The notes under the pieces: model-generated
The model's input: the letters and a program-made list of their open reading frames with translations, nothing else
The model's database searches: none
Told to the model about the DNA's origin: nothing
Shown here: piece by piece, positions 765 through 32,490 of the stretch
Numbering within the stretch: position 1 is the stretch's first letter
Layout of the letters: each line of letters begins with the position of its first letter
NCBI GenBank assembly: GCA_009377505.1
Contig: WHTX01000015.1
Location: 1 to 34,117 of the forward strand
Length of the DNA: 34,117 nucleotides
Direction of reading: 5' to 3'
From: Acidimicrobiia bacterium
GTDB taxonomy: Bacteria > Actinomycetota > Acidimicrobiia > Acidimicrobiales > CAIXPF01
Program-made: the position numbers and the translations under genes

Positions 765-1643
765 CTAGATCTCGTGGAGGGGGAGCCAGCCGAGCCGCAC
801 GCATTCGAGCGCGTCTTGCGCCGGCCGGAAACCTCGGTCGGACTTGAGGAGCTTCTCCAGGCGACGCTGGGCGTGGTGGGTCTTGCCGAGCAGCCACTCG
901 CACAGTGCGAGCTCGTACTCGGCCACCGATCCGACGTAGGAGCGCCTCGGCGCCGCCGCCTTGGCGCTCACGAGCACTTGTCTCGCCTCGTCCGGCTCAC
1001 CCGTTCGCCGCAGCGCCCAGCCTTCGAACACCAGCAGGCCAGCGCTGAGCTCGTCCCGGCCGCTGGCGCCCCCCGCCAGGGCGAGCGCCCGCTCGGCGTC
1101 GCCCTCTTCGGCGGCGAGCTCCGCCGAGGCCAGGCACACGGCGTCCGACGCCGGCAGCGCAGCCAGCACACCCGCCGCCTCCTCCGCGGCACCCCCGTCC
1201 TGGAGCAGCTCGGCAAGCAGCAGGGACAGGGTCACGTGGTCGAGCGGGTGGCCGTACACCACGATGTCGAGCGCCAGGGGCACGGCGAAGGGCGCCAGCT
1301 TCCCCGGCGCCATCCGCGTGCACACGAAGGGGTGGTCCTGCAGGTTGTCGCCACCTTCGAGCGCGGTGATCAGGTACTCCTCGGCGGCGGCCAGGTCTCC
1401 CCGGGCGTAGGACTTCAGCGCGTACAGGGCGCACGCCAGGTAGCGGATGTTCGTGCGCTCGTCGTCGGCCAGCTCGCGGAGCCTGGCGAAGTTCCCGTCG
1501 CGCAGCGAGTCGTACAGCTCCTGGTGGCCACGGGGGTCGAAGCGCCCCGGCCTCGGCCCCTCCGACGGCCCGCCGAAGCTGTCGCGGACGGTCATGAGCG
1601 GCATGGGCAGGAGCCAGGCTGGCGCCTGAAGTGTGGTGGTCAT
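765..1643 (-). CDS. TPR-like helical repeat protein, last gene of the tubulin-like operon
   Basis: This 292-residue protein has no signal peptide or membrane segment. From about residue 45 it is a chain of Ala/Leu-rich helix pairs with TPR/SEL1 character, such as AR-GDLAAAEEYLITALE and GDAERALALAGG. That suggests a cytosolic scaffold or adaptor. It starts at ATG 1643-1641, only 4 nt after the TGA of the six-TM gene, with a GAGGA Shine-Dalgarno sequence directly upstream, so it is co-transcribed and probably translationally coupled. It closes the five-gene operon. No catalytic motif is visible. Assignment to the TPR superfamily rests on helix pattern and length; the partner is inferred from position only. 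Confidence 0.75.
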   Translation of the reverse strand: MTTTLQAPAWLLPMPLMTVRDSFGGPSEGPRPGRFDPRGHQELYDSLRDGNFARLRELADDERTNIRYLACALYALKSYARGDLAAAEEYLITALEGGDNLQDHPFVCTRMAPGKLAPFAVPLALDIVVYGHPLDHVTLSLLLAELLQDGGAAEEAAGVLAALPASDAVCLASAELAAEEGDAERALALAGGASGRDELSAGLLVFEGWALRRTGEPDEARQVLVSAKAAAPRRSYVGSVAEYELALCEWLLGKTHHAQRRLEKLLKSDRGFRPAQDALECVRLGWLPLHEI

Positions 1644-1647
1644 GTCC

Positions 1648-4647
1648 TCACATCACGTGTTCGTCGAAGGGCGCGTGGCCGTTCGTGGCCACGGCCGGGG
1701 CTGGGAACTCGCTGAGGGGCAGGTCCGAGCTGGCGAAGGGCATCGTCCAGTCCGAGCGCACGAAGGCGAGGATCAACCCGGCCGCTCCGGCGTCCACCGG
1801 CTCGCTTTCGTGTACGGCGACGTCGGGCAAACCCTGCGGCGCGGGCACGACCTTGCTCGGCCACCACACCCGCGGGCAGAAGCGCGCCCTGGGGTCGTCG
1901 GCGACGGGCAGCGGCATCCGGCGGAAGAAAGAGGCCGGCAGCTGCGGCGCCCGCCCCCTGACCAGCTCGCCGCCGAGCTCCTGGATCGTCTCCAGCGCTT
2001 CGTCCCCGCCCCGCTGGCGGTCGTCCCGCTCGAAGTACAGGCCGAACACCTGGCCACTGGCCACATCGCTCACCCGCTCGCGCAGGGCCCGGTCGAAGGT
2101 GCCCTCGTGCAGCATCCGCGCCAGCGCCCAGCGGCTGCTCTCGGGGCCATGGCCCGGAGCGTCCTCGGACGGCTCGATGCTCGGGTCTCGCTCCGGGTGC
2201 AGGTGGGCCAGCGTCTCGACATCCCGCCCGGTCCGGTGGGCCAGCTCGGGCCGGAACAGCTCGACCGCCGCGCCGTACTGGTGCTGGAGCCAGCCGGGCT
2301 TGGCGACCTCTCGCCGGATCCGCGCCAGCAGGGCGTCCCGGCCGTGCTCGCTCAGCTCGAACCGGGAGATGCGCAGGCTCATCGCCCCTGCCAGCTCCTC
2401 CAGCTCCGGGGCACGCCGGTCCTCGGCCGTCACCGGCGGCCCGAACGGCAGCCACACCAGGCGATTGAGCGCGGTGGCCGTGGCCACCAGCTGACCGTGG
2501 GCGATCCCGAGCCGTTCAGCCTGGCCCGCACAGGACAACGCCGCTTGCTCCGCCCAGCGCAGGCGCGCCGCCGCCCCGCCGAGCCGAAGGCGTTCCCCGA
2601 CGCGGAGCCAGGCGATGGTGACGAGCGTGGCGAGCACGGCGACCAGTAGGCCGCCCGCCCACAGCAGGAGCTGCTGGCGCCGGTCGCCGCTCGACATGTC
2701 GGCGTACCAGCTGTTCTGGCGAACGACGCCGCCGACGCCGCTCAGCGTCACATGGACGAGGAGGATGGCGCCCACCGCCTTGGCCGCCGTGGGCCCCCGG
2801 CGCCCGCCGCGCCCGTGGCACAACGCCGCCAGGGCAAGGAGGGCCGCGCCGAACAGCGAGGTCAGCAGGACCTCGCCGACCCGGACGGCGCCGATCGGAG
2901 GGGGAGCCAGGACCACGGCATCCTGGGCGGCCGCGGCGAGGAGCACGAGGACGCCGAACAGCACGCCGAGCTCGACACGCGCCTTGCCCAGGATCGACTG
3001 TCCACCGACCCTCGGGCCCTTGAGCACCGGCACGGCGCAGGCGAGCGCCGACATCAGCGCCACGCCAGAGAGCGCCAACCAGGCCACCGTCCGCTGGTCC
3101 TCGTCCCACTCGAGCAGCCCGGCCGCCTCGGCCAGCCCGGAGAGCACGGCACCCGTGGCCACGAGGCCGACGAAGAGCGTGGCCATCACCCAGTTCAGCG
3201 CCCCCAACAACGGGCTCGGCCGCCGGTCGAGCACCTCACGCGCCCGCCGGAAGTCGGCCATCGCTGCAGTGGCCGCCCCTTCAGCGGCCTGCCATTGGGC
3301 GCGGACACTGCTCGCCACCCTGCCGAGGAGGGTCTCGCCACCGTCATCACCACTCGTCAGCTGCTGGCGGACCGCAGCTGCGCCGCTCGACGGATCTGGC
3401 CCGAACACGGTCGGGTCCGACACGACGAGCCGTCGCCCCTCCTCGGTCGGCGGGGCGACGGCCGGCGCCGGCCCACCGTCGACGAGGGCGAGGGCGTTGT
3501 CCACGAGCTCGCCCCACTCCGCCCGGCTGACACGGGAGCCGTCGATCTCCTCGCGCCGGTGGGCCACGGCGGACTCGAACTCGGCGACCGTCCCTGGCCC
3601 CGAGGTCTGCGACCCGGGTGCCGGGTCCATCCCCGCCCACACCGTGGTGAGCTTTGCGTCTTCGCCGATCGCCGCGTTGATCGACTCACCGGCGAGGTGC
3701 TCGAGGTCCGACAGCACGCTCGTGCGCAGTTGGCGGGGGATGCCGGCCAGGTAGCGGCCGGTCTCCCTGCCGATGCGGCCGGCGGCCGTGCGGACGTCCA
3801 CCGCCTCGCGTTCGTCGGGCCGTGCCGGCGGTTGCTCGAAGCGCAGCCCGGGCAGGCGCGCCAGGACGGCATCGGCCCACCTGGTGACGTCTCGGGACGG
3901 GTTATAGGAGACGTCACACCCCGGCGGCACGGGGAGGGGCCGCATGGAGGTGAGCGCCTCGTCGACGGGGAGGGGTGGGCCGACGGCAACCCGGGCGAAG
4001 CTGCGGGCGACCATGACCTTGGCGTCGCCCGACCCCGTGACGCCCGGGGCGCCGTCCTCGATCGGCGCCTCGGGCATCCCCTGCCACAGGCCTGCCTGGG
4101 TAGCGACGCCGACGGCCACGTGACCGGCGAACACCTCCGGGCGCTCGGCGGACAGGGGCATCGAGAAGGCCTCGTCCGAGGGACGATCCTCGGGAAGGAG
4201 CACCACGTTGGCCTGCGCCCTCGGCGTGAACAGCTCGACCAGCGGTGTCGGCCGGTCCAGGTCGGTCAGGGCGAGCACACGTGCCTCGACGACGACGGCC
4301 GAAGGCGGACGGTGTCGCTCGAGCTGGTCGGTGACGTGTATGGCGGCGCCGGCCAATGCCGGCACGTCCGAAAGGGGCAGGGCGCTGGACGCGACGGTCA
4401 CCACGTGCGCCACCTCGACCCGGTGCTGCTCGGCGAGCCGGTCGAGGAGAGGGCCCCCCTCCTGGGGCCCGTCGGCTCCGACGCGCCAACAGCGGAGCGT
4501 CGGCTGGGGGCCGTCGCCGGCGTCGACGACCCACAGCGGGCGGATGAGGCGCGCCACGGCGAGCCGCTCCAGGCCCTCGAGGGCACGGCGCACGACCTCG
4601 TCGGCCCGCGGGTGGACGACCAGCACCGTGACACGCGACGACGTCAT
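1648..4647 (-). CDS. Large six-TM membrane protein of the tubulin-like operon
   Basis: The product has 999 residues. Residues 1-470 form a soluble N-terminal region without a recognised domain. Six hydrophobic segments follow at about 483-505, 521-542, 559-580, 590-610, 624-643 and 660-682, then a ~310-residue soluble C-terminal region. The frame is open 32 codons further upstream. I chose ATG 4647-4645 because it overlaps the TGA of the tubulin-like gene by one base (TGATG), the usual sign of translational coupling, and the extension is Arg-rich shadow sequence. I do not recognise the family. Its position directly behind the tubulin-like gene suggests a membrane anchor for that protein (inference). 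A decayed copy of its C-terminal region (around residues 845-955) lies at 13930-14247, showing that a second copy of the gene once existed. Confidence 0.85.
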   Translation of the reverse strand: MTSSRVTVLVVHPRADEVVRRALEGLERLAVARLIRPLWVVDAGDGPQPTLRCWRVGADGPQEGGPLLDRLAEQHRVEVAHVVTVASSALPLSDVPALAGAAIHVTDQLERHRPPSAVVVEARVLALTDLDRPTPLVELFTPRAQANVVLLPEDRPSDEAFSMPLSAERPEVFAGHVAVGVATQAGLWQGMPEAPIEDGAPGVTGSGDAKVMVARSFARVAVGPPLPVDEALTSMRPLPVPPGCDVSYNPSRDVTRWADAVLARLPGLRFEQPPARPDEREAVDVRTAAGRIGRETGRYLAGIPRQLRTSVLSDLEHLAGESINAAIGEDAKLTTVWAGMDPAPGSQTSGPGTVAEFESAVAHRREEIDGSRVSRAEWGELVDNALALVDGGPAPAVAPPTEEGRRLVVSDPTVFGPDPSSGAAAVRQQLTSGDDGGETLLGRVASSVRAQWQAAEGAATAAMADFRRAREVLDRRPSPLLGALNWVMATLFVGLVATGAVLSGLAEAAGLLEWDEDQRTVAWLALSGVALMSALACAVPVLKGPRVGGQSILGKARVELGVLFGVLVLLAAAAQDAVVLAPPPIGAVRVGEVLLTSLFGAALLALAALCHGRGGRRGPTAAKAVGAILLVHVTLSGVGGVVRQNSWYADMSSGDRRQQLLLWAGGLLVAVLATLVTIAWLRVGERLRLGGAAARLRWAEQAALSCAGQAERLGIAHGQLVATATALNRLVWLPFGPPVTAEDRRAPELEELAGAMSLRISRFELSEHGRDALLARIRREVAKPGWLQHQYGAAVELFRPELAHRTGRDVETLAHLHPERDPSIEPSEDAPGHGPESSRWALARMLHEGTFDRALRERVSDVASGQVFGLYFERDDRQRGGDEALETIQELGGELVRGRAPQLPASFFRRMPLPVADDPRARFCPRVWWPSKVVPAPQGLPDVAVHESEPVDAGAAGLILAFVRSDWTMPFASSDLPLSEFPAPAVATNGHAPFDEHVM

Positions 4648-7600
4648 CACATCACCGCGGACATGTCGCCGAGCTCGAGGTGCTCGAGCGCGGTGACCAG
4701 CTCCGACAGGGCCCGGTCGATCATCGAGTACATGCCCGGCCATACCGCCCGCTCCGAGCCGTGCACGGCCGCATCGTCGAGCGACCGCTTGCGGTGCAGC
4801 TCGATCTCGTTGGCGTAGTCCCGAGCGGTCGAGGTGAAGACGCCGATCGCCGCTTCCCTCCGGTCCGTCGCCGAGGCCGACGTCAGGTCACCAGACCTGA
4901 GCTCGACCACGGGCGTGGACAGCTTCGGCCCAGCGTCGCCGATGCGCACCCAGCGGTCGAGCGCGCCGTTGAGCCGCTCGTAGACGTGCGCGGCCTGCAT
5001 CGTGGTGAGGCCGGGCTGCAGGCCCAGGTCGCGCAGCGCGACGTAGGCGCCGAGCGGCTCGAGGCTCTGGAGCTGGGCCACCTCGGCGTAGGCGAGCCCG
5101 AGCGCCTCGAGCACGGCGGGGAGCAGGTCACGGTGCTGGCCAACCTCCCGCAGGAGCGGCTGGGGGAACGAGCACGTCTTGTTCCCGGCAGCGATGCACC
5201 GGCGCTCCCGGTCGATGCGACCGAGCAGCAGCCCGGTGAACCACCCCCGGGTCATGGCCAGGATCACCTCGTGGGAGGCGGGCACGAACTCCTCCACGGG
5301 CCGGGCCCGCCGGCTGGTCCAGAAGTTCGTGCGCGCCGGCGGTGACTGCTTGGCCGCGTTCCAACCGCGGACGATCGGGTCCATGATCGACGCGAAGACG
5401 AGCGGGTCGTGCGCGGCGCCGAGCGTCGAGGAGATGGAGATCGACCGGACGTTCTGCGCAGTCGAGAACTGGGCGCCCAGGTCCCCGGGCGCCGAGCCCC
5501 CGCCGAGCGCGTGGGAGAGGATGTCGGCGACGACCTCCTCCATCGGGTGGTCCTTGAAGGGCAGGGTGCTCGGCACCGGCCGCTGCGGGATGCTCGGCCG
5601 GTGGTGCAAGAGGGACAGGAGCCCCGTGTCCAGTCGGACCAGGGGCTCGGCGGCGCCGAGGGCCGAGGTGAGGGCAGTGCGGAACGCCGCCCGACGTTGG
5701 GCCGTCTCGGCCGGGTCGACCGTCTGGTCGTCGCCGAGGTAGCTCCGCAGGTCGCTCCCGAGGAAGCGGCTGAACGAGGCCGCCGGCCGCCCCAGCCAGG
5801 CCCGGGCCCTGCGCAGCAGGTCCTCGGCCGAGAAGCTCGTCGTGAAGGTCGCCGCAGCGCGCGGCTGCACGCCACCCAGCAACCACGACGTGTCCGGGGA
5901 CCACGCCGTGCGGATCTCGACCGGTGGGGCCAGGTCCGCCGATCCGTCCTCGCTGAGGAAGTCGCCGACGATCACGGAGGAGCGGGCCTCGATGACCGAT
6001 TCCCCGGCCAACTTGGAGCGGGTGGAGCTTGCCAACAGGTCCTCGAAGCGGCCCGGGAACTCGTCGAGGTCCAGCACGAGGAACTCGTTGCGCGGCGGGC
6101 GCAAGCGCGTCGGCACGGGGCCGTCCGGCCAGGAGCGCACCAGCGGCTCGCGCACCCCGTCGCCCACCATCCCCAGCTGGTGCAGGTGCGAGCGGGCGTG
6201 CTCGAGCGAACGAGCCAGCGGCGTCAGGAAGTCGGTCCGCAACCCGTCGAGGAGGGCCCGGGCGACCTCACGCCGCCGCGCCTCGGCACGGTAGTTGCCG
6301 CCCACCCATATGCCCTGCCTCATGGCGTCCTCGATCGCCGCGTTCGTGAAGGGCACGTTGCCGGACTGCGTCAGCCGGGCGGCGATCTCGCTCCGGTAGC
6401 CCTCGGACCAGCGGAGGTGGTCCGTCATCTCCTCGCCGAGCTCCCGGCAGGCGTCGGCCAGTTCCTCGGCCACGTAGCGGACCAGCACGGCCGCGGTCTC
6501 GAGGCCGTGGCGGCTGACGACGGCGAGCACCTCCTCGAGGACCCGACGGGGCGCCTCGTCGACCCAGCTCCGGGCGCGGGCGCGCAGGCGCTCGTCATAG
6601 GCCTGCATCAGCGCGTCGGCGTTCCCGGGGATCACCTCGGCGATCCGCGTGGTCCAGGCCTGCGCCGGCATCGCCTTGTCCGACCGGACCTGTTCCCCGA
6701 TGTTGCCGAGCGTGGCGTGCAGCAGCTGCTGGGCCTCCTCCGGCTGCAGGTTGTCGATGACCTGGTCCGAGCCGTTGCGCTCGTACAGGCGCGCGGCCCG
6801 CAGGAAGTGCACCAGCTCGTCCCGGGCGAGGGCCTCGGCGATCTCCCGCGGGTCGCGGGCGTCGTTCGGGTCGATGTCGAGGGCCCGCCGGTGGTGGCCG
6901 TCGAGCAGCCACTCCGCGGCCATGCGCGCCAGGCGTTCCTCGCTGTAGCGGCCGAAGCGGTCGAGCCCGAGCCCGACCTCCGCGTAGCCGAACGCTTCGA
7001 ACACCGGCTGGTGGTCGCGCACGACGATGTCGGCCTTGACCGCGTTGCCCTCGGCGCTGCTCTGCCAGTTGGCCATCGTGTACTCGACGAGCTTGATCTG
7101 GATCGTCGGGTCCGTGGCCCAGCCGCGCAGGGCGCGGCCCATCATGGCGTACACCTCCCTCTGGTCACCGAACGTGACACCGCGGGTGTTCGAGGCGCCG
7201 ACCAGGAAGGGGAAGGCGGGCCCGCTGCGGTCGATGGGGGTCGAGGCGCCAGCGGCGGCGAAGAGGGAGCTGGCCCGGGCGTAGTTGCCGGTGAGCCAGT
7301 ACCCGTTCATCAGCTCGCTCAGGGCGGCGAGGGCGTTCGGCTGGACCCCGGCGGTCGCCGCGTCGCCCAGCTGGGCGAACACGTCGGACGCGTAGAGGAT
7401 CCCGAAGGTGTTCCTCCCCGCCGTGCCGGGGAGCTGGCGCAGCAGGTCACAGGCGTCGAGCAGGAGGCCCGCACCCGTGCCGCCGGCGAGGGAGGACACG
7501 ACGATGACCACGGGCTCGGTCGGGGTGTGGGCTTGTTTCCCGTAGGCGAGCTGGTGGATCTCGGCCAGCTCCGCGCCCGCCGAGGCCGACGACAGCCGGG

Positions 7601-8027
7601 CGTGGGCGCCGCGCAACGCGTCGAGGATGCGGTCGGCGTAGGCCAGGCCGATGGTGCGCCCGACGGCGCGGTACTGGCCCGCGCCGGTGGTGATCGGGAC
7701 CCGCAGGTACGTGGGGTCGACCCGCCAGCCGGCGAGGTCCCGCCACCCCTCCTCGGGGCTGGCGCCGCTCACCTTGTCCGACACGGCGCGGAAGTCCACG
7801 CCCGACATGACCAGCCCGAGGTAGTTCGACGGCGGGAGCAGCTCGACCTCCTCGATCTCGCCGCCGTCCTGGGCGGTGGGCGTGTCGATGTGGATCATCT
7901 GCCAGGCGCTCGGCATGCCGCCGGTCCAGCCGATGGTGTCGAGCCAGCCCAGCAGCTCGTGGCGGAGGAACCGGAGGGTCTTGCCACCGGAGCCGCCGAG
8001 GCCGACGAAGAGGAACTTTCGGAGCAC
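4647..8027 (-). CDS. Tubulin/FtsZ-like GTPase-fold protein (Tubulin_2-type)
   Basis: The product has 1126 residues. The N-terminus has a Gly-rich nucleotide-binding loop (VGLGGSGG, residues 8-15), IDTP at 47-50 and GQYRAVGR at 117-124. Residues 178-187 read SSLAGGTGAG, matching the tubulin/FtsZ signature GGGTG[ST]G. This combination is typical of the Pfam Tubulin_2 family, part of the FtsZ-like families that Makarova and Koonin linked to VWA proteins and proposed to act in membrane remodelling. About 800 further residues are unassigned. No membrane segment is seen, so it should be cytosolic. It starts at ATG 8027, 29 nt after the VWA gene, and its stop overlaps the start of the six-TM gene. 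GTP binding and polymerisation are inferred from the family. The family call is secure; the cellular role is not. Confidence 0.9.
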   Translation of the reverse strand: MLRKFLFVGLGGSGGKTLRFLRHELLGWLDTIGWTGGMPSAWQMIHIDTPTAQDGGEIEEVELLPPSNYLGLVMSGVDFRAVSDKVSGASPEEGWRDLAGWRVDPTYLRVPITTGAGQYRAVGRTIGLAYADRILDALRGAHARLSSASAGAELAEIHQLAYGKQAHTPTEPVVIVVSSLAGGTGAGLLLDACDLLRQLPGTAGRNTFGILYASDVFAQLGDAATAGVQPNALAALSELMNGYWLTGNYARASSLFAAAGASTPIDRSGPAFPFLVGASNTRGVTFGDQREVYAMMGRALRGWATDPTIQIKLVEYTMANWQSSAEGNAVKADIVVRDHQPVFEAFGYAEVGLGLDRFGRYSEERLARMAAEWLLDGHHRRALDIDPNDARDPREIAEALARDELVHFLRAARLYERNGSDQVIDNLQPEEAQQLLHATLGNIGEQVRSDKAMPAQAWTTRIAEVIPGNADALMQAYDERLRARARSWVDEAPRRVLEEVLAVVSRHGLETAAVLVRYVAEELADACRELGEEMTDHLRWSEGYRSEIAARLTQSGNVPFTNAAIEDAMRQGIWVGGNYRAEARRREVARALLDGLRTDFLTPLARSLEHARSHLHQLGMVGDGVREPLVRSWPDGPVPTRLRPPRNEFLVLDLDEFPGRFEDLLASSTRSKLAGESVIEARSSVIVGDFLSEDGSADLAPPVEIRTAWSPDTSWLLGGVQPRAAATFTTSFSAEDLLRRARAWLGRPAASFSRFLGSDLRSYLGDDQTVDPAETAQRRAAFRTALTSALGAAEPLVRLDTGLLSLLHHRPSIPQRPVPSTLPFKDHPMEEVVADILSHALGGGSAPGDLGAQFSTAQNVRSISISSTLGAAHDPLVFASIMDPIVRGWNAAKQSPPARTNFWTSRRARPVEEFVPASHEVILAMTRGWFTGLLLGRIDRERRCIAAGNKTCSFPQPLLREVGQHRDLLPAVLEALGLAYAEVAQLQSLEPLGAYVALRDLGLQPGLTTMQAAHVYERLNGALDRWVRIGDAGPKLSTPVVELRSGDLTSASATDRREAAIGVFTSTARDYANEIELHRKRSLDDAAVHGSERAVWPGMYSMIDRALSELVTALEHLELGDMSAVM

Positions 8028-8056
8028 GGGGGTTCTTTCCTGGGGTCGTTGGTTCG

Positions 8057-10642
8057 TCAGAACCAGGAGGGGCGAGGGGGAGGAGCCGAAGCCTGAGCTG
8101 CCGACGTCCGAGCGGCGGGCACTGTGGCTGGCCGCTCGTCGGGCCGGTCGCTCGGCGATGGCCGCAAGGGCACGTCGGCCGGCCGTGGGGGTGCGGGCGG
8201 GCTGGCCGGGCGCGAGGCCGCGTCGGCCGGTCGTGGGGCTGCGCCGGTCGCCGACGGGGAGCTGTCCGTGCCCTGGTCACCGTGGGTGGGGGGCGCGTTG
8301 GACCCCTGCTGGGCCGGGCGCGGGCGGCCGTTGTCGGCCAGGCGGGCAGCGGCTGCGCGCAGGCCGTCCTCGAGCACCTGTGCCGCCTGGGCAGCAGTGA
8401 ACCGTCGGGGAGCGAGCAGGACAGCCTCGGCCGGCTCCTCCTCGCCGCTGGTGTCGTCGCGGACGATCACCACGGCGAGCTGGGTGAAGTGCGAGGTGAT
8501 CACGCCGGACCTGGCCCGTCGGGAGTGTGTGGCGGGCAGGGAGGTGGCGCAGTCAGCGCCGGGGTAGCTGATCCTCGCCGTCGGGGTGGCGAAGGGGTGG
8601 CGGGGGAGCCGCCGCTTCAGGCTCCCTCCACCCGGGAGGTGGAACTGCGTCCGGTCGCCCTTGAGCGGTCGGAGGTCCTCCATGGCGACCTCCCCGTCGA
8701 GCGTCGCTGACGTTGGCCCGTCACGCCGCACGCGGGCGGGGACCGACACGGCGAGGAACTCCTCGGGCGAGGGGAGCCGGCTCTGCCGCCAGGTCAGGAG
8801 CCACAGGACCCCGAGGGGCACCAACACGCTGATTGCCGCCAGGCCCAGGGCTGCGAGCGTTGCCTTGGCCCGGTCCGGCGACCGGGCGAGGGCTAGGTCG
8901 TCGACCTCCAGCGCGCTCGTGCCGAGGTCGCGGGCCTCCTGCCCGTCGTCGAAGGTGGCGCTGTACCCGGTGCTGAAGCTGGCAGCACCGTTGCGCTGGT
9001 CGGTGAGCTCGAGCGTGGCGGGGACGAGGACCTCCGTCCCGGCGTCGAACGGTGCGCAGGCGTCCCGGGGCGCGTCAGCGCGGAGGCTCCCGATCGGAGC
9101 GCCGTTCTCGTCGAGGACGGCGGCCGGCCCGTCGCCGAGCACCACGCAGAAGCGGGCGCCGGGGATGGTGGCCCGCGCCGTGAAGACCAGTTCGCCGACG
9201 TGGCGGCCGGTGCCCTCGATCGACCGGGGCCCTCGCCAGGCGGCGGACGGTTGCGGGGGCAGGTCGGCGACGGCGAGGCTGCGGCTCACTGTCCCGAGTG
9301 CGGGGTCGCCGGTGATGGCGCCGCGGAACGTAGCCGTCGCCATCAGGTCGACGGAGGACCGGTCCCCTCCGGGGATGCTGGCGACCCAGACGTGGCGGTC
9401 CCCATCCCAGCTCGTGGGCACGGGAGCGCCTGACGCCGTGGCAACGAGGTCGACATCCTCGGGACCGAGCCCACCGCTGGTCGGCTCCTCTGGTCGAGCC
9501 ACCACGAGGTCGACGGTGTGGGTGGTCGAGCCCCGGTAGAGCTGAGGGCCCTCGAGCACCTGCGCGGCGGCGTCGAGGTCGACGAAGCAGGCCCGCAGGG
9601 GCGCGCTGGGCTGCACCACGAGCCTACCGCCGGCGTCGCGGACCTCAGCTGGGAGCTCCGTGTCCGTCGTGGGACCGGCGACCTGCAGTGGCGGGTGCGG
9701 TGGGGCGAGCGGCACGGTCGCCGTGGCGCCCGGCGGCAGCCGGAAGGCCACGCCAGCGATGGCGGCGACCGGCAAGGTGCCGTCCATCAGCCGGTTGCAG
9801 TCGACTTCGACGGCCCCGCTCGTCTCCTGGAACTGCCGGAAGAAGGAGTCGGCCAGCTGATCGGCAGAGCTGAGGACGTCCCGTTGCCCGCTGATAGAGC
9901 ACGGGCCGCCCGGTGTGAAGAGCGCCTGGAGCACGGGGTCGGCGTTCGTCCGCAGTTGCACCGTGCGGCTGTTCGGTGACCCGGTGCGCAGCTCGCTCAG
10001 CCGGGCGTCGAAGCCCGCGTTCCTCAGCTCCTCGGCCAGGGGCCGAGGGTTCACCGCGCTCGGGGGCGGAGGCCCGCAGACCAGCTGGGACAGCTCGTGG
10101 GTCACCGACCACGGGTCGGTCGTCGTCGAGTAGGCGGGCGAATCGCCGGCGTCGATGGTGGCGACGTCGTGCGCCCCGTCGGTGAACCAGACCAGGGTCT
10201 TGCACTCCTTGGGCGCGGCGATCGAGGCGAAATGGCTGGCGGCACCGCGCAGGGCGACGACGTAGTCGGTGTTCTGGCCGCCGTTACGTTGGTGGAATGC
10301 CTCGAGCTCGCCGCGCGCCGCGCCGGCGCCGGACGGCAGGTCGTAGCGGCCGTAGGGCTGGTACCTGCCATCGAAGCCTGCGATCGCCGCGCTGACCGCC
10401 CCCTCGCGCGGCGCCGATGTGGCGAGGAGGTCGATGAGCTGCTGGGAGGCGCTGACCCGCTCGCCTCCCGGGTCGGTCTGGCGGAGGCTGCCTGACTGGT
10501 CGAGCAGGAGCAGCACGTGGCGGACGTCGCAGCCTTGGGCGGTGGCGCCGGGCACCTCGGCGGCCGACGCGAGCGGTGTCGACAGGGCTGGGAGGATGGT
10601 GGTGCCGATGAGCAACGCCAGGAGCAGGGCGCCGCGCCTCAT
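8057..10642 (-). CDS. Secreted/membrane-anchored von Willebrand A domain protein
   Basis: The product has 861 residues. A signal peptide is visible (MRRG, hydrophobic core, ALSTPLASA at about 19-27). A VWA domain follows with a full MIDAS metal site: D48-x-S50-x-S52, T125 and D155 (FTDG). Residues ~280-580 look like beta-rich extracytoplasmic domains. A single TM segment lies at about 593-617, followed by a ~240-residue cytosolic tail whose last ~90 residues are rich in Pro, Ala and Ser. The frame is open 168 codons further upstream. I placed the start at ATG 10642 because a clean signal peptide begins there and it overlaps the preceding stop as ATGA. The topology (MIDAS outside, Pro-rich tail inside) fits a sensor or adhesin that talks to the cytosolic tubulin-like protein encoded next; that role is inferred. 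Confidence 0.9.
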   Translation of the reverse strand: MRRGALLLALLIGTTILPALSTPLASAAEVPGATAQGCDVRHVLLLLDQSGSLRQTDPGGERVSASQQLIDLLATSAPREGAVSAAIAGFDGRYQPYGRYDLPSGAGAARGELEAFHQRNGGQNTDYVVALRGAASHFASIAAPKECKTLVWFTDGAHDVATIDAGDSPAYSTTTDPWSVTHELSQLVCGPPPPSAVNPRPLAEELRNAGFDARLSELRTGSPNSRTVQLRTNADPVLQALFTPGGPCSISGQRDVLSSADQLADSFFRQFQETSGAVEVDCNRLMDGTLPVAAIAGVAFRLPPGATATVPLAPPHPPLQVAGPTTDTELPAEVRDAGGRLVVQPSAPLRACFVDLDAAAQVLEGPQLYRGSTTHTVDLVVARPEEPTSGGLGPEDVDLVATASGAPVPTSWDGDRHVWVASIPGGDRSSVDLMATATFRGAITGDPALGTVSRSLAVADLPPQPSAAWRGPRSIEGTGRHVGELVFTARATIPGARFCVVLGDGPAAVLDENGAPIGSLRADAPRDACAPFDAGTEVLVPATLELTDQRNGAASFSTGYSATFDDGQEARDLGTSALEVDDLALARSPDRAKATLAALGLAAISVLVPLGVLWLLTWRQSRLPSPEEFLAVSVPARVRRDGPTSATLDGEVAMEDLRPLKGDRTQFHLPGGGSLKRRLPRHPFATPTARISYPGADCATSLPATHSRRARSGVITSHFTQLAVVIVRDDTSGEEEPAEAVLLAPRRFTAAQAAQVLEDGLRAAAARLADNGRPRPAQQGSNAPPTHGDQGTDSSPSATGAAPRPADAASRPASPPAPPRPADVPLRPSPSDRPDERPATVPAARTSAAQASAPPPRPSWF

Positions 10643-11082
10643 TGGCGGGACCACGCTTCCGCCATCATCCAGCCGTGCCCACAGGCCGCTCCGACAGCGC
10701 AGAGCGCCATGACCGTGGCCACGACCGCCGGGCGCCAGCGCGGGATCACGTAGTCCGACCGGGTCGATCGCTTGACCTCTGCTGATCGGAACCAGGCGAA
10801 CATCCCGAGGGCGAGCCAGGCCCCGCTCAGCCAACCGATGACATTCAGCCGTGAGATCTCGCTGGCCGCCATGGTGTCGGTCCTCGCCAGGGGGAGCAGC
10901 GCCACCGCCGTCGCCGCGGCGACGAGGAGGGCGGCGAGCGGGACGAGCGGTGGTGTGGCTGACGAGGACGGGTCCTTGCCCGCAGCGAGGCCCGCCCAGC
11001 CGAGTGGCACCGGTGGGGCCGCTGCAGGGGTGCGCGGGGGCGGCGCCAGGCCGGGTGGTGAGATCGAGTTGGGAGACCCCAT
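10639..11082 (-). CDS. Small three-TM protein with Pro-rich N-terminus, first gene of the tubulin-like operon
   Basis: The product has 147 residues. The first ~45 are rich in Pro, Ala and Ser. Three hydrophobic segments follow: LVPLAALLVAAATAVALLPLA, LNVIGWLSGAWLALGMFAWF and AVVATVMALCAVGAACGHGW. The frame extends far upstream, but ATG 11082 has a strong Shine-Dalgarno sequence (GGAAGG, 6 nt upstream on the coding strand), and the extension is Arg-rich noise. Its TGA overlaps the ATG of the VWA gene (ATGA). It is probably the first gene of the leftward operon, with its promoter in the 11083-11327 gap shared with the divergent gene at 11328. The family is not recognised. Confidence 0.75.
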   Translation of the reverse strand: MGSPNSISPPGLAPPPRTPAAAPPVPLGWAGLAAGKDPSSSATPPLVPLAALLVAAATAVALLPLARTDTMAASEISRLNVIGWLSGAWLALGMFAWFRSAEVKRSTRSDYVIPRWRPAVVATVMALCAVGAACGHGWMMAEAWSRQ

Positions 11083-12556: not shown

Positions 12557-13927
12557 GTGGTGACCATCGGGCCGACGCTCTCGCCACCGCCGCCGCTTCC
12601 TCCGCCTCCGCCGCTCCCGTTGGCGGCCCCGTCGGGCCCGCCACGGCCCCAACCGCCGACGGGTGGCGGGTGGCGGTGGTTCCGGAGCCAGCCGATGTGG
12701 GTGCAGGTGGTGCTCGCGCTGATGGCGCCGCCGCTCCCCCTCCTGCTGCACACGCTCGGACGCGCCCCCCGCCAGCGCAAGGCTTGGTGGGCGCTGACGA
12801 TGTTCGCCACCCTCGCCTGGGCGGTGGTCGGCGCCGCCGCGGTCGGCTCGTCCCCCGAGGAGGGCACGGTGGCCGTGGATGCCGTCGCTGACGCGCCGAC
12901 GACGACGGTCGACCCGGTCACCCGGGCCATCGGCGACGGCTACGTCGCCCGTTGCAAGGACGGCGACTTCTCGAACAACCTCGACTTCGGCAAGACCTGC
13001 TCCGGCGGTGACGGGGTCGACACCTGGCTCGCCACCTACGGGCAGTGCCGGGACGAGTCCGTGATCATCATGGGCCCGGAGGCCAGCTGTGATGGCCACG
13101 GCGGCTTCCGCTACCTCCTCCCGGCGGGCTACGAGCCCACGGCGGCCACGTCGGACCTGGCCAAGTGCAAGAACGGCCTCTTCTCCGACAACAGCGACCT
13201 GGCGGCGGCCTGCAGCGCCAACGGCGGTGTCGACAGCTGGCTCGCTCCCTACGGGGAGTGCAGCGACGGCTCGTTCATCATCATGAGCAAGGACGCCTCG
13301 TGCGACGGCCGCGGCGGCTTCCGCGCCCTCGTCCCGGTCGACCAGGGGCCAACGGCACGGCCGGATGACGTCGCCAAATGCGCGAACGGCCTGTTCTCCG
13401 ACAACACCGACTTCGACAACACCTGCGGCGACAACGGCGGTGTCGAGAGCTGGCTCGCTCCCTACGGCGAGTGCAACAACGGCAAGGTCATCTCTATCGA
13501 CGAGGACGCGAGCTGTTCGGTGCACGGTGGGTTCAGGGTCCTCCGACCCGACTACGTCCCGCCCGTCACGACGACGACCGCCCCGCCGCCCCCCACGGCG
13601 CCTTCCCCCGATGCCACTGCGTTGTCCGGCAACGACGGCGTGGTCAGCGAGCTCGAGTGGATCGCGGCTGGCATCGTCCTGGAGAACCAGGGGCTGGGCT
13701 ACGCGACCACGATGATCGGGCTCGAGGACGCTCAGGAAATGGCGACGGCGATCTGCAGCGCCGCGCCGGCGATGTCCTCGCAGGAGTCCCTGATGTTCGC
13801 GCTCTACACCAGCGCGCGCGGCAGCGGGTTCTCGGGCTACGAGGCAGAGACCGTCGTCCCGGCGCTGGCAGGGGCGCTGATGGTGGCCGCGTGCGAGTCC
13901 GAGTTCGACCGGCTCGTCGGCGCCTGA
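12557..13927 (+). CDS. Membrane protein with three Cys-rich extracellular repeats
   Basis: The product has 456 residues. A Pro-rich N-terminus (1-38) is followed by two hydrophobic segments (~47-67 and ~77-98) and a Thr linker. Three ~60-residue repeats lie at 130-189, 201-260 and 271-331. Each has four Cys in constant spacing (for example C204, C219, C235, C249), with the motifs NGLFSDN, GGV-[DE]-SWLAPYGEC and ASC-x-x-[HR]-GGF. A PTTTT/Pro linker and a ~100-residue C-terminal helical domain with two Cys follow. The start at GTG 12557 is tentative; no good Shine-Dalgarno sequence is visible. Four Cys per repeat suggest disulfides or metal binding outside the cell. The third repeat is partly identical at DNA level to the start of this window. 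The C-terminal domain vaguely recalls DUF732 but is not assignable. Confidence 0.82.
   Translation: MVTIGPTLSPPPPLPPPPPLPLAAPSGPPRPQPPTGGGWRWFRSQPMWVQVVLALMAPPLPLLLHTLGRAPRQRKAWWALTMFATLAWAVVGAAAVGSSPEEGTVAVDAVADAPTTTVDPVTRAIGDGYVARCKDGDFSNNLDFGKTCSGGDGVDTWLATYGQCRDESVIIMGPEASCDGHGGFRYLLPAGYEPTAATSDLAKCKNGLFSDNSDLAAACSANGGVDSWLAPYGECSDGSFIIMSKDASCDGRGGFRALVPVDQGPTARPDDVAKCANGLFSDNTDFDNTCGDNGGVESWLAPYGECNNGKVISIDEDASCSVHGGFRVLRPDYVPPVTTTTAPPPPTAPSPDATALSGNDGVVSELEWIAAGIVLENQGLGYATTMIGLEDAQEMATAICSAAPAMSSQESLMFALYTSARGSGFSGYEAETVVPALAGALMVAACESEFDRLVGA
12944..13549 (+). repeat. Three tandem copies of the Cys-rich domain
   Basis: Units at 12944-13123, 13157-13336 and 13367-13549 encode homologous ~60-residue domains. 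Units 2 and 3 are also similar in DNA. A fourth unit, with 111 bases perfectly identical to 13384-13494, opens the window at base 1. Confidence 0.85.
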
Positions 13928-13929
13928 GG

Positions 13930-14247
13930 TCGCCGGCCACCGGCAGGGGTCTCCGCCCGAAGAACGACGCCGGCAGGTGTCGAGCCCGTCCCCGGACCAG
14001 CTCCCCCCGAGGTCCTCGATCGTCTCGAGCGCCCCCGTCCCCCCCGGTGACGGTCGTCGCGCTCGAAGTACAGGCCGAGCACCTGTCCGCTGGCCACGCT
14101 GCTCACCGCTCGCCCCGCGCCCGGTCGAAGGTGCCCTCGTGCAGCATCTGGGCCAACGCCCAGCGGCGGCTCGCCGGCCGCTCGTCGGGCCCGTCAGCCC
14201 CCGGCTCGATGCCCGGGTCCTGCTCCGGGTGGAGCTGGGACAGGGCC
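13930..14247 (-). pseudogene. Decayed fragment of a second six-TM protein gene
   Basis: Read on the - strand in changing frames, this stretch encodes pieces nearly identical to the C-terminal region of the 1648-4647 product. Examples are RWALAQMLHEGTFDRA (RWALARMLHEGTFDRA in the intact gene), VASGQVLGLYFERDD and HPEQDPGIEP. Several indels break the frame, and neither the 5' part nor the 3' end is present. It starts 3 bp after the stop of the Cys-repeat gene and ends abruptly near 14247 at a junction with unrelated sequence. It is a remnant of a duplicated tubulin-like gene cluster. Confidence 0.85.
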
Positions 14248-14612
14248 TGGTCTGGGCGAAGCGCGACACAGGCGACACCCTGTTCGCGCTGCCCAAGGGC
14301 CGGCGGAAGCTCGCCAACCTGTACCGCGACCCGCGGGCGACCGTCGTGATCTTCGACGCGGCCAACCCGTGTGAGAGCGCCCAGGTGCAGGGCACGGCCT
14401 CCATGGAGGACGAACCGGGCGGCATGATGATCGATGACCTGTCGCACATGATACGGGCGGGCGCTATCCCGGGTTCGCGGGGCCGGACCCGCGGTGGGCG
14501 ACCGATCACGGCCGACAAGGTCACGACCAGCTGGCCCGAACTCGTGAGCTCCCGGCCTTTGGCTGGAGCGGATCAGGGCCGGAGCGCCATGACCGCGGCG
14601 ACGGTGGCGTAG
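14248..14612 (+). pseudogene. N-terminally truncated pyridoxamine-5'-phosphate-oxidase-like fragment
   Basis: The + strand frame reads LVWAKRDTGDTLFALPKGRR, then KLANLYRDPRATVVIFDAANP, a V-x-GTAS turn, DDLSHMI and PITADKVTTSW. This is the order of strands seen in the small split-barrel F420/FMN-binding oxidoreductases. The N-terminal strand that normally precedes VW is missing. The sequence instead runs into the decayed - strand fragment at 13930-14247, so no start codon belongs to it. The frame stays open to TAG at 14612. It is a truncated gene joined at a rearrangement breakpoint near 14248. An intact relative lies at 18226-18696. Confidence 0.65.
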
Positions 14613-15459
14613 CCGCGCCATTCGAGGGAGGCGGCGGGGGCCGACGACGCGAACTCGACGGTCCAGCCGCCGTCGGGTTGCTGGCCGTCGGCGAGGCGGT
14701 CGAGCTCGGCGGCGACGACGTCCGCGGCGAACAACCGGCGGGCCGGGCCCTCCGCGCGGGGCGCGAGGTCGAGCGCTCGCAGCGCCTCGCCCGGGGCGCC
14801 GCCCTCGACGGGCACCACGCCGTCGGGCGGCAGCATCCGGGCCATCCCCTCCAGTAGGGCGGCCGCCCGGGCGTCGGCCTCGGCGACGACATCGAGGAAG
14901 CGGACGGCGAACAGCAGCTCGTAGGCGTGCGGAGCGCTGTCGAGCCCGGCGATGGCGTCGAGGCACCAGCTCGTCGCCCGGGCCAGCCACCGATGGCCGG
15001 CGACGCCCGGGTCGTGACGGGCGACCAACTGTGCGTTCGCCGCGACCTGGGCGGTCATCTGGAGCGACGACGTCGTCTGGTCGTCCCGAGCCACAGCGCC
15101 GCGCACCCGGCGGGGTCGGTGACCGGGAGGGTGAACGGCAGGCCGCCGTCGCCGAGGGTGTGCCGGTCGAGCCAGTCGCACAGCTCGACGGCGCGGGGCC
15201 CGGCCGCCGCCGGCGCGACGGCACCGACCTCGGCCAGCACCTCGAAAGCGTGCATCGCCCCGGTCGGCTGGCTCTCCGGGGACCGCAGGTCGGGCTCGAT
15301 GCCCCAGCCGTAGCCGCCGTCACCGTTGCGGTAGGCGTCGAGGGCGGCGAGGACCGCACCGGGGTCACCCCCGCCCAGCAGCAGCTCGAGTCGCCGCCGG
15401 TCGAGGGCCCGGCCGTGGCCGGCGAGGAACGAGACGGCGGCCGCGGTGTCGACGCTCAT
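14573..15459 (-). pseudogene. Frameshifted prenyltransferase/squalene-cyclase-repeat-like gene
   Basis: Translation from ATG 15459 gives MSVDTAAAVSFLAGHGR, then NGDGGYGWGIEPDL and GDGGLPFTLPVTDPAGCAALWL. At about 15080-15100 the sense continues in another frame with QTTSSLQMTAQVAANAQLVA and runs to the TGA at 14573-14575. Together this makes ~295 residues with GDGG-x-GWG and PDGGW motifs, as in alpha/alpha-barrel terpene cyclase or prenyltransferase beta-subunit repeats. A single indel, real or a sequencing error, separates the two halves. The start overlaps the stop of the upstream oxidoreductase gene (ATGA), so the two form an operon. Whether a functional protein is made cannot be told from the sequence. 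Confidence 0.75.
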
Positions 15460-16328
15460 GACCGCACCAGCACACCGTCGAGGGCTCCGGCGAGGAGCTC
15501 GACCTGGTGGACGTCGGCGTCGCAGGGCAGGAACACGACGTCGTCGCAACCGGCGTCGTCCAGGCGGCGCAGTTCCCGCTCGAGCTGGTCGGCGGTGGTG
15601 ACCGTGTCGGCTCTCACCGCGGCCAGGTAGGCCGGGCCGTAGTAGTGGTAGAGGCAGTGCTGGGCGATCTCCTCCGCGCCGGAGCCGAGGCAGAAGTAGC
15701 GCTCGACGACGACGCGCGGCTGGCCCGGCCGCCTCGCCCCACGCCACGCCTCCCGTATGGCGTCGATGCTCGCGGTCAGGGCCTCGTGCCCGAACGAGGG
15801 CGCCACCCACCCGTCACCGAACCGTGCCGCCCGTCGGAAGGTGGCCGGCGCGAAGCCGCCGAACAACAGCCTCGGCCGTCCAAGCGGAAGGGCGGGGATC
15901 GCCGCCCCGCCGGGCCCGCCGAGGCCAGCGGACCAGACGTCCCGCATGGTGGCGACCATCTCGTCCATGACGGCGCCCAGCGTCGCCGGCGCCGGCCCGA
16001 CCGCCTCGTGGTCGTCGGGCCAGCCGCCGAGGCCGAGCCCTGCGGTCAGCCGGCCGCCGCTGACCCGGTCGAGCGAGGCCAGCTGCTTGGCCAGCACGAC
16101 GGCGTTGCGCCGCCACGGCACGTTCAACACCGTGGTGAGCAGCTCGACGCGCTCGGTCCGCGCCGCCGCGGCGGCCAGGGCGACGAGCGGGTCGAGGTTG
16201 TCGTACACGAGCCGGTCGATGACGCCGACCGACTCGAACCCGGAGGCCTCCGCGGCCGCCGCCCACTGGCCGACGGCGCAGCCGGGCGCGCCGGGAATGG
16301 CTGCCGGCAAGCCGATGCCGATCCTCAT
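15456..16328 (-). CDS. LLM-class (F420-dependent type) oxidoreductase
   Basis: The product has 290 residues with the bacterial-luciferase-like TIM barrel pattern: an MRIGIGLP first strand, ASGFESVGVIDRL, LAKQLASLDRVSGGRLTAGLGLGG, and FRRAARFGDGWVAPS near the C-terminal half. Family members use F420 or FMN to oxidise or reduce small molecules; the substrate is unknown. It starts at ATG 16328 with a strong GAGGAGGAA Shine-Dalgarno sequence. It overlaps the downstream frameshifted gene by 4 nt and is divergent from the AraC regulator with a ~70-bp gap. That regulator probably controls it. Confidence 0.92.
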   Translation of the reverse strand: MRIGIGLPAAIPGAPGCAVGQWAAAAEASGFESVGVIDRLVYDNLDPLVALAAAAARTERVELLTTVLNVPWRRNAVVLAKQLASLDRVSGGRLTAGLGLGGWPDDHEAVGPAPATLGAVMDEMVATMRDVWSAGLGGPGGAAIPALPLGRPRLLFGGFAPATFRRAARFGDGWVAPSFGHEALTASIDAIREAWRGARRPGQPRVVVERYFCLGSGAEEIAQHCLYHYYGPAYLAAVRADTVTTADQLERELRRLDDAGCDDVVFLPCDADVHQVELLAGALDGVLVRS

Positions 16329-22478: not shown

Positions 22479-22892
22479 TCACGACTCGTCGGCGTCGAGG
22501 CGCTCCATCGGCTGGCCGGTCACCTCGGCGATCAGCTCGAAGTCCTTGTCCACGTGCAGGACCGTGAGGCCGGCGAGCTCGGCCGCGGCGGCGATCATCA
22601 GGTGGGGAATGGACGGCGCCCGGTGCTGGCCGCGGGCGGCGAGCAGCGCCAGGACCTCCACGGCGCGGTCCTCGATGGCGGGGGTGAGGTACTTGATCGG
22701 CATGGCGGAGAGGGGCGGCTGGCGGGCGGCGCGCCGTAGGTCGGCCGCCGAGCGTGCCGAGAAGCCGACCTCGAGTCGGGTGACCGTCGTGACCCGGACA
22801 AGGCCCCGTTCGATGCGCTCGGCCCAGAGCTGAGCATCGGGGCTGTCGCCGAGCCGGGCCAGCGCGGCCTTGTCGACCAACCAGGTCGTCAC
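22479..22892 (-). CDS. vapC: VapC-type PIN-domain toxin
   Basis: The product has 137 residues: [12 protein letters not shown] at the N-terminus (D7), TRLEVGFSA with the conserved Glu, and [20 protein letters not shown] at the end. PIN toxins cut RNA using three or four acidic residues. In the third motif ([13 protein letters not shown]) His stands where relatives usually have Asp (PDLLIAA), so activity may be reduced. The start overlaps the antitoxin stop as ATGA, the typical vapBC coupling. The family is confident; whether the toxin is active is open. Confidence 0.9.
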
Positions 22893-25163: not shown

Positions 25164-25388
25164 ATGCGTGACTCGACTACCGTTCGTTTGTCAACAAGGA
25201 CGCGTCACGAACTTCGCCGGCTCGCCGACGCCGACGGCGTGACCCTCGACCAGGCGATCGCCGCGCTGGTGCGCGCCGAGCGACAGCGCCGCATGGGCGA
25301 GGCGCTCGCCGCGGCCGAAGTCACCGCGGCTGACACGTCCTGGCTCGAGCTCGGGCTCCGCACGGTGGCGGACGATGCGAGCCGGTGA
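25164..25388 (+). CDS. MazE-like antitoxin
   Basis: The product has 74 residues. The N-terminus STTVRLSTRTRHELRRLAD followed by DGVTLDQAIAALVRAE is a ribbon-helix-helix-type DNA-binding segment. The acidic C-terminus (TAADTSWLELGLRTVADDA) would neutralise the toxin. It starts at ATG 25164 directly behind the palindromic operator. Its last 14 nt overlap the toxin start. Confidence 0.85.
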   Translation: MRDSTTVRLSTRTRHELRRLADADGVTLDQAIAALVRAERQRRMGEALAAAEVTAADTSWLELGLRTVADDASR

Positions 25389-25710
25389 CGTCGTGCGCAT
25401 CGACTTCGGCGTCCCCATCGGGAGCGAGCCCGGCTTCGTCCGGCCCGCTGTGGTGGTGACGGCCGATCTCGTCCTCGAGGCGCGCCCGCGGACGATCCAC
25501 GTCGTCCCCATCACGAGCAACACGCGCCGTCGACTTCCCACCGAGGTGCCGGTGAGTGCGGCCGCGCTCGACCGCCCGTCGGCCGCCCAGTGCCACCTCT
25601 GCACCGTGGTGAGGATCCAGCGGGTCGAGGAGGGCGACTTCGGTGAGATCGGTGCCGCGGCGCTCGCTGAGGTGCGCTCTCTCCTCGGCGACCTGCTCGA
25701 CATCGGGTAG
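25375..25710 (+). CDS. mazF: MazF/PemK-type endoribonuclease toxin
   Basis: The product has 111 residues. Family marks are RAGDVVRIDFGVPIGSEPG, FVRPAVVVTADL, the core strand HVVPITSNTRRRLPTEVPV, and the Ser-containing segment SAAQCHLCTVVRIQRVE. The catalytic Arg and Thr positions of MazF (RPAVVV, PITSN) are kept, so it should be an mRNA-cleaving toxin. The start overlaps the antitoxin stop, giving coupled translation. Confidence 0.92.
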   Translation: MRAGDVVRIDFGVPIGSEPGFVRPAVVVTADLVLEARPRTIHVVPITSNTRRRLPTEVPVSAAALDRPSAAQCHLCTVVRIQRVEEGDFGEIGAAALAEVRSLLGDLLDIG

Positions 25711-31998: not shown

Positions 31999-32123
31999 GA
32001 GGCGGGCGGGACGGCGGGCCCCGGGGTCGGCGGCTCGCCGCTCGAAGGCGACGGGCAGTGGAGCGTGGCGGGCCCCCTGTCGCTGGCTCGACGACCCAGG
32101 GCGCCAGCGCGGCCCGTGGTGCA

Positions 32124-32157
32124 TGTACATCGACGTACGACGCTGTACAGTTCTCCC
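32124..32157 (+). promoter_or_regulatory. Promoter/operator of the phd-PIN module
   Basis: Three GTAC cores lie at 32125, 32135 and 32145, exactly 10 bp apart; the outer two are TGTACA. TACAGT (32146-32151) fits a -10 box, 6 nt before ATG 32158. Phased sites on one face of the helix suit cooperative antitoxin binding over the promoter. Confidence 0.6.
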
Positions 32158-32490
32158 ATGTCGTCGACGATGACCGTGAGCCAGGCGAGGGCGGCGCTAC
32201 CCGAGATCATCGAGCGCGTCCTCGCCGGTGAGGAGGTCACCCTCACTCGCCACGGCAGGCCCGTCGCCGTCGTCGTGAACCCGGACATCCTCCGGGTGCG
32301 CCGAGCGGGCGAGACGTTGGCCGTGGCGGCGAACGTCCGCGAGGTCCTCGACGAGGCTCGGCGGTCGCCGCTGCGGGACCAGCCGACGCTGACCAAGGAC
32401 CGGGCCGAAGCGCTTGTCGCCGAGGTGCGAGCTGCCCGGTCCGACCGCCAGCGGAGCGCGACGTGGACGCCTTCGACGCCGACGTGTTGA
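32158..32490 (+). CDS. Phd/YefM-family antitoxin
   Basis: The product has 110 residues: MTVSQARAALPEIIERVLAG, then EEVTLTRHGRPVAVVVNPD is the Phd/YefM DNA-binding fold. The C-terminal part (REVLDEARRSPLRD, LTKDRAEALVAEVRAARSD) would contact the toxin. Start ATG 32158 lies behind a phased operator. The gene overlaps the toxin start by 28 nt. Confidence 0.92.
   Translation: MSSTMTVSQARAALPEIIERVLAGEEVTLTRHGRPVAVVVNPDILRVRRAGETLAVAANVREVLDEARRSPLRDQPTLTKDRAEALVAEVRAARSDRQRSATWTPSTPTC

Follow-up and report, generated by a model that had tools for sequence, protein, structure and literature searches.

Positions 1 to 34,117 of contig WHTX01000015.1 (assembly GCA_009377505.1, from an Acidimicrobiia bacterium; this whole stretch of 34,117 nucleotides is referred to below as the window) carry a minus-strand operon that includes a gene of the Tubulin_2 family. 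The results of the analysis suggest, with a probability of about 0.55, that four of its genes encode an envelope-associated assembly of the tubulin superfamily, in which a GTP-binding tubulin-like protein (tub) would be anchored by a pseudo-tubulin with transmembrane (TM) helices (tm6), and a von Willebrand factor A protein (VWA protein) would act as an external sensor; the fourth component is a small membrane protein (tm3). The tm3-VWA-tub-tm6 arrangement is a fixed four-gene cassette, conserved far beyond chance, because this gene order is kept in dozens of relatives across which tub identity is 24–45%.

The operon comprises five open reading frames, all open between the coordinates given here. 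The gene for tm3 (10639–11082; 147 residues), the first of the cassette, shares an ATGA overlap with the gene for the VWA protein (8057–10642; 861 residues; Pfam VWA_2, E 5e-7), which is followed after 29 nucleotides by tub (4647–8027; 1126 residues); tub and tm6 (1648–4647; 999 residues) share a TGATG overlap, and a 4-nucleotide gap separates tm6 from the gene in fifth position, which encodes a TPR protein (765–1643; 292 residues; Pfam TPR_19, E 1.3e-6). The VWA protein is predicted to have a signal peptide, an external VWA domain, one TM helix (residues 598–616) and a cytosolic proline-rich tail. Its metal ion-dependent adhesion site is complete, with the DxSxS motif (DQSGS) at residues 48–52 (10487–10501) and a T and a D further on, and DxSxS is found within the first 260 residues of 48 of 50 VWA homologues. 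Hydropathy identifies TM helices in tm3, the VWA protein and tm6. An earlier note on this DNA had described a tightly coupled, membrane-associated operon with a complete metal site outside the cell and a tubulin, bearing the signature GGTGAG at residues 182–187, inside it; all of this holds, on predicted topology as far as the two sides of the membrane are concerned. The same note gave tm3 three TM helices, of which two are clear and the third is present only perhaps. PADLOC returned no match for any of the five proteins, NCBIfam added nothing useful, and tm6 has no family in Pfam, NCBIfam or PADLOC. The source genome encodes an ordinary FtsZ on another contig and has no second Tubulin_2 gene.

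Tubulin_2 genes are rare, being found in 6 of 246 genomes surveyed from the phylum and in 21 of 397 from the order. A genome scan with the single tub protein gave no matches, but an alignment of tub built from the loci of the 21 order genomes retrieved 80 loci from a public genome collection, 54 of them close relatives and 26 distant (Meiothermus, Nostocales and others). The close set consists mostly of metagenome-assembled genomes (MAGs) of Acidimicrobiia, together with the isolates Kutzneria CA-103260, Actinosynnema ALI-1.44, Patulibacter minatonensis and IMCC26207; the labels Bifidobacterium (L067), Gammaproteobacteria (L094), Rhodospirillaceae (L077) and Saprospiraceae (L083) may reflect binning errors. 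Genes of the relatives, many of which are MAGs, were called by a simple custom script. The VWA gene lies directly upstream of tub in 48 of 51 testable close loci (of the three misses, one is due to a contig edge and two to reading frames that are broken or run on), and a tm6 homologue lies directly downstream in all 46 that could be counted. A tm3 homologue was recognised by hidden Markov model in 26 of 40 close loci, and a small open reading frame with at least two TM helices was present in 39 of the 40. No tm6 was recognisable in any of 23 distant loci. When the 397 order genomes were scanned with a tm6 profile, 19 matched at E below 1e-15, and all 19 belong to the 21 Tubulin_2 genomes (hypergeometric chance 1.7e-30, with phylogeny ignored); the other two have a different third gene (G102) or a fragment of 155 residues (G585). 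Six further matches, at E 9e-5 to 8e-4 and over short stretches only, look like noise. The claim of a conserved system is thus borne out by both gene order and co-occurrence. One Acidimicrobiaceae MAG (L080, 3217–6538) has a second, frame-broken copy of tub upstream of an intact cassette.

By its match to the Tubulin_2 profile (PF13809, E 4.8e-44, residues 6–370), tub is a member of a known family, also named FtsZl1 (Makarova and Koonin, 2010). In an alignment of 49 tub sequences, the T1 loop GLGGSGGK (residues 9–16; 7980–8003) has G9, G11, G12 and G14 invariant; the T3 loop GAGQYRAVG (residues 115–123; 7659–7685) keeps R120 and G123 in all 49 and G115, A116, G117 and Q118 in 48; and the T4 signature loop SLAGGTGAG (residues 179–187; 7467–7493) has S179, A181, G182, G183, G185 and G187 in every sequence. 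These loops being invariant or nearly so, GTP binding by tub is likely. An AlphaFold2 (AF2) model of tub (single chain, no templates, alignment of 49 sequences) reached a predicted local distance difference test score (pLDDT) of 91.0 and a predicted template modelling score (pTM) of 0.84. In structural alignments this model matched CetZ (3zid; Z 23.0, 308 of 342 residues, 3.8 Å), alpha/beta-tubulin (7ttd; Z 21.3, 354 of 425) and FtsZ (2vxy; Z 20.3), as well as TubZ and BtubB. A nucleotide pocket, the absence of which from a structure model would, according to the earlier note, have undone the system claim, is present, with conserved T1, T3 and T4 loops in a modelled tubulin fold. The fold appears complete in the model, with its C-terminal domain placed after a helical insert at about 393–621, because the structural matches span model residues 2 to about 985; long helices (455–621) lie between the two tubulin parts. 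The model therefore agrees with the architecture of FtsZl1 proteins (an FtsZ-like N-terminal domain, an extended coiled coil and a helical C-terminal part), and it goes beyond the 2010 description in supplying both T6-H7 and the C-terminal domain, neither of which could be identified in the family at that time (PMC2875224).

The second tubulin-like subunit would be tm6, for which an AF2 model was built (single chain, no templates) from 37 sequences (pLDDT 80.2, pTM 0.63, with most of the N-terminal 230 residues at 76–96). In a DALI-like structural alignment with VIA-align, which only re-ranks Foldseek candidates, the ten best matches in the PDB were all gamma-tubulin or CetZ, at Z 9.7–12.0 over 250–268 residues; they include gamma-tubulin 5fm1 (Z 12.0, 268 residues, 4.8 Å), CetZ1 4b46 (Z 11.5, 250 of 330 residues, 4.4 Å), CetZ2 (Z 10.1) and entries of the gamma-tubulin ring complex. 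The next rows were unrelated coiled coils at Z 7.7 and below, and the generic Rossmann GTPases EF-Tu and Rab5 reached Z 5.4–5.5 over about 140 residues only. The alignments extend over model residues 3–988, so that both ends of the protein contribute, with long helices and the TM helices between them; the membrane segment, of six hydrophobic helices, occupies residues 487–710 (2518–3189), and hydropathy puts the helices themselves within residues 487–680. In the model, the order of secondary-structure elements fits tubulin: strand 5–11, helix 17–31, strand 38–42, strand 79–87, helix 92–112, strand 118–126, strand 146–150, helix 170–184 and strand 208–222 precede the insert, and strand 758–763 with helices, then strands 924–929, 944–947 and 958–967, follow it. 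Judged by eye, both models have the insert after strand S7 and before the remainder of the C-terminal domain (in tub it comes after the presumed S7 strand 343–352 and its helix), and an insertion point common to the two proteins, if truly shared, would speak for a common origin.

The T1 and T4 positions of tm6 have no conserved glycines across the 37 sequences, so GTP binding of the usual kind is not expected of the protein, and for this reason it is called a pseudo-tubulin here rather than a tubulin GTPase. The model points to a tubulin fold without GTP loops, with a TM module between its two halves, a reading absent from the earlier note. Its homologues have mostly six or two TM helices by hydropathy, and the description of the protein as six-TM does not extend to the relatives that carry two; an even number nevertheless puts the two halves on the cytosolic side, where the fold needs them to be. 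Residue 197 is D or E in 27 of 35 sequences, and one might speculate that this acid supplies in trans the T7 acid that is missing from tub. Searched against Pfam member by member, tm6 gave scattered membrane families only, and a sequence search of the PDB returned noise from TM segments and designed helices. No transmembrane or pseudo-tubulin was found in open-access papers.

The distant FtsZl1 loci mostly consist of a VWA gene, tub and then a gene for a large third protein, and profile-profile comparison found nothing above noise that would relate these third proteins to tm6. A clear second Tubulin_2 protein is encoded by the gene after tub in L111 and by the gene close behind tub in L120. 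In the cyanobacterial locus L118 (Nostoc), the third protein has a marginal Tubulin_2 match at the T4 region (Pfam E 0.02) and a hairpin of two TM helices in mid-protein, a feature also seen in several other distant third proteins. The third genes of cyanobacteria, L113, L114 and L010 scored above all 12 of their respective shuffled versions with the tub profile, and those of Meiothermus barely exceeded theirs. A general rule of a tubulin accompanied by a membrane pseudo-tubulin across the FtsZl1 family is plausible. For the wider proposal, that tm6 is a polytopic protein inside a tubulin fold, acting as the GTP-loop-free partner of an active tubulin, and that such pairs are general in FtsZl1 across phyla, the odds appear to be even. 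In locus L123, the Tubulin_2 gene is immediately followed by one (13281–16118) for a protein with an HSP70 domain, which brings to mind the tubulin/HSP70 themes of Kaur et al.

FtsZ and most relatives of tubulin are soluble and need separate membrane anchors. In the assembly proposed here, tub would be the GTP-binding subunit, and tm6 a second tubulin-fold subunit that has lost its GTP loops, holds a membrane module between its cytosolic halves and anchors tub at the membrane as a partner or template. With tm6 as the anchor, GTP-dependent assembly of tub would take place on the membrane surface. With its metal-dependent binding domain outside and its tail inside, the single-pass VWA protein would inform the assembly of ligand or strain. 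The part of tm3 would be to stabilise the membrane portion, and that of the variable fifth gene, whose product in relatives is often a trypsin-like protein with a membrane anchor, would be to provide the output. Gene order, co-occurrence, the GTP motifs and the topology by hydropathy are direct results; the folds of tub and tm6 are predicted, and we infer the tub-tm6 contact, the membrane polymer and the sensing. If correct, the combination of a tubulin-fold subunit possessing its own membrane domain with a GTP-binding tubulin and an external VWA protein would be a new design of membrane-bound cytoskeleton, in which a tubulin assembly is anchored by a further tubulin. The FtsZl1 family, which was proposed in 2010 and has no biochemical function in the literature found, would also gain a structural frame and become testable.

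The earlier note had treated five genes as a unit, and had made the system claim depend on the co-occurrence of all five families. Co-occurrence stands for tm3, the VWA protein, tub and tm6, and fails for the TPR protein, the slot of which is variable. No TPR homologue occurs at any related locus; homologues are present, unlinked, in a few genomes of the order, and only one genome besides that of the window (G502) combines a clear homologue with the system, which is on contig C10, the homologue being on C8. A core role for the TPR gene is thus rejected, and it is probably an accessory or passenger. A fragment of 37 residues that shares 68% identity with the C-terminal end of the TPR protein is encoded on another contig of the same genome (L135, G000 C139, 3795–3905). 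In ten relatives (L054, L055, L059–L062, L071, L082, L097 and L099), the gene downstream of tm6 encodes a protein whose N-terminus is rich in Lys and Arg and which has a single TM helix and a trypsin-like domain (confirmed by Pfam in five and assigned by BLAST kinship in the others), which should face outside by the positive-inside rule. The nucleophile motif GxSGG is present in four of the ten, and those without it may be pseudo-proteases. In the tub tree, trypsin-like genes are confined to loci with the six-TM form of tm6, and the window groups with L051 (SH-like approximate likelihood ratio test, 100). Other loci have lipoproteins, multi-TM proteins or an ankyrin protein in the fifth slot, and some continue with an unrelated gene.

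Genes in the flanks have metabolic or housekeeping roles, and a defence-island reading is unsupported, since restriction genes occur among the neighbours only as strays and defence islands are absent. Of 103 neighbour families, the 25 commonest were reported; no kinase, diverged GTPase or OmpA gene was found among them or in the window flanks, and no DO-GTPase or GAP1 gene among them, in the window or in the immediate downstream genes scanned. In the window itself, secreted proteins with a repeated cysteine-containing, DUF3761-like unit flank the operon on both sides (2–604 and 12557–13927, both plus strand), with bases 1–193 matching 13384–13576 at 91% and bases 1–127 matching 13171–13297 at 81%, which suggests a local duplication around the cassette. 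Adjoining a copy of this flanking repeat gene, about 9 kb from intact tm6, is a degraded partial second copy of tm6 (13923–14243, minus strand, against 1888–2211; 80% DNA identity over 325 bases) with frame breaks and a TGA. A gene at 14573–15440 (minus strand), with a run such as YRNGDGGYGWGIEPDL, appears to be split across two frames near 15080 by a frameshift, decay or an assembly error. A PIN-domain protein (22479–22892), a PemK-like toxin (25375–25710) and a Phd/YefM-like antitoxin (32065–32490) are scattered and mutually non-adjacent.

Several observations weigh against the assembly proposed above. In the presumed T7 stretch of tub (residues 304–316, after H7), acidic residues are not conserved (no column has them in more than 57%), and classical GTP hydrolysis is therefore doubtful. 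No sequence method links tm6 to tubulin: hhalign of tm6 against tub gives a probability of 0.1–0.3, and the scores of tm6 against other third genes stay within shuffled controls. Foldseek alone found no significant match in the PDB or among viral models (E above 0.05), a miss that is to be expected because the 999-residue model holds a large insert, and the fold comes from one AF2 model (37 sequences) and one structural aligner. The missing sequence signal, the Foldseek result and a mean pLDDT of only 80 with pTM 0.63 would suit a tm6 that is an unrelated alpha/beta membrane protein, its likeness to tubulin a coincidence of modelling or alignment; the operon would then be an ordinary membrane-remodelling one of the FtsZl1/VWA kind, whose membrane partner is lineage-specific. 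This appears rather improbable, given that all ten top matches are tubulins (gamma-tubulin, CetZ1 and CetZ2) standing clearly above the next rows, that EF-Tu and Rab5 score so much lower over a shorter range, that the order of elements fits tubulin, and that a second tubulin lies behind tub in L111 and L120. It is also unlikely, if slightly less so, that tub is a non-polymerising GTP-dependent switch in a fixed 1:1 complex with tm6, reporting the state of the VWA protein; the unconserved T7-equivalent acid and the long inserts of both proteins, which could block filament lattices, speak for such a switch, but the fold predicted for tub is that of a whole tubulin, down to the C-terminal domain through which known relatives make their longitudinal contacts.

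Other explanations concern the purpose of the system. The assembly might serve as a platform for motility or surface appendages, with the tubulin pair organising membrane-located pilus or secretion machines, as has been suggested for cyanobacterial relatives. In Synechocystis, phototaxis is impaired and photosystem II fluorescence altered in mutants of sll0445 (Tubulin_2), sll0446 and sll0447, the products of which co-fractionate with proteins of pilus assembly (PMC9880817); sll0445/sll0446 have also been named as targets of LexA or SyCRP1/2, which regulate motility and the biogenesis of pili (PMC12313861). These mutants are the only experimental hint on function in the literature found, but cyanobacterial loci lack a recognisable tm6 or tm3 and no pilus genes were seen in the window flanks or among the reported neighbour families of relatives, so that a role of this kind is doubtful for the cassette. 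A GTPase-centred system of biological conflict (immunity), in which the tubulin would assemble and the variable fifth gene would encode the effector, is much less probable still. GAP1-N2 systems with a tubulin and an extracellular vWA are described in actinobacteria and firmicutes by Kaur et al. (2020; PMC7159879), and both the patchy distribution (19 of 397 order genomes) and the changing fifth gene, trypsin-like and ankyrin proteins included, would fit; but DO-GTPase, GAP1 and HSP70 are all missing from the 25 commonest neighbour families, the neighbours are mostly housekeeping genes with stray restriction genes only, and PADLOC matched none of the five window proteins.

The envelope-associated tubulin assembly favoured here is closest to the FtsZl1/VWA systems, whose VWA link had already been described (Makarova and Koonin, 2010; PMC2875224), an association that the earlier note also called established. 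A VWA gene in the same operon is found in the window and in 48 of 51 relatives, and the tubulin family, the upstream VWA protein with its intact metal site, the membrane-protein neighbours and the succession of N-terminal FtsZ domain, coiled coil and helical C-terminal part are all alike. Genes for a protein kinase, a P-loop GTPase or OmpA, which are frequent though not universal neighbours in those systems, were not seen in the window flanks or among the 25 commonest neighbour families. The cassette differs in that its tubulin has a C-terminal domain in the model and that its third gene is modelled as a pseudo-tubulin inserted in the membrane; neither tm3 nor the trypsin-like neighbour appears in the main-text description. 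The GAP1-N2 systems, some of which have two tubulin genes in firmicutes, resemble the cassette in their tubulin with a helical C-terminal part and their membrane-bound extracellular vWA, whereas no DO-GTPase, GAP1 or FNIII component is seen in the cassette, and the available text of their description (PMC7159879) contains no polytopic pseudo-tubulin. The Synechocystis cluster (PMC9880817) shares a Tubulin_2 gene and a mutant phenotype of the envelope or motility, but it is very distant, its authors annotate the neighbours as FtsA-like and DivIC-like, and the Nostoc-type loci examined differ from the cassette in having no recognisable tm6 or tm3. BtubA/BtubB, the alpha/beta-tubulin heterodimers and gamma-tubulin templates likewise combine two tubulin-fold subunits, one of them perhaps structural; in the predicted pair of the cassette, by contrast, the second subunit would lack GTP loops and carry its TM helices inside the fold.
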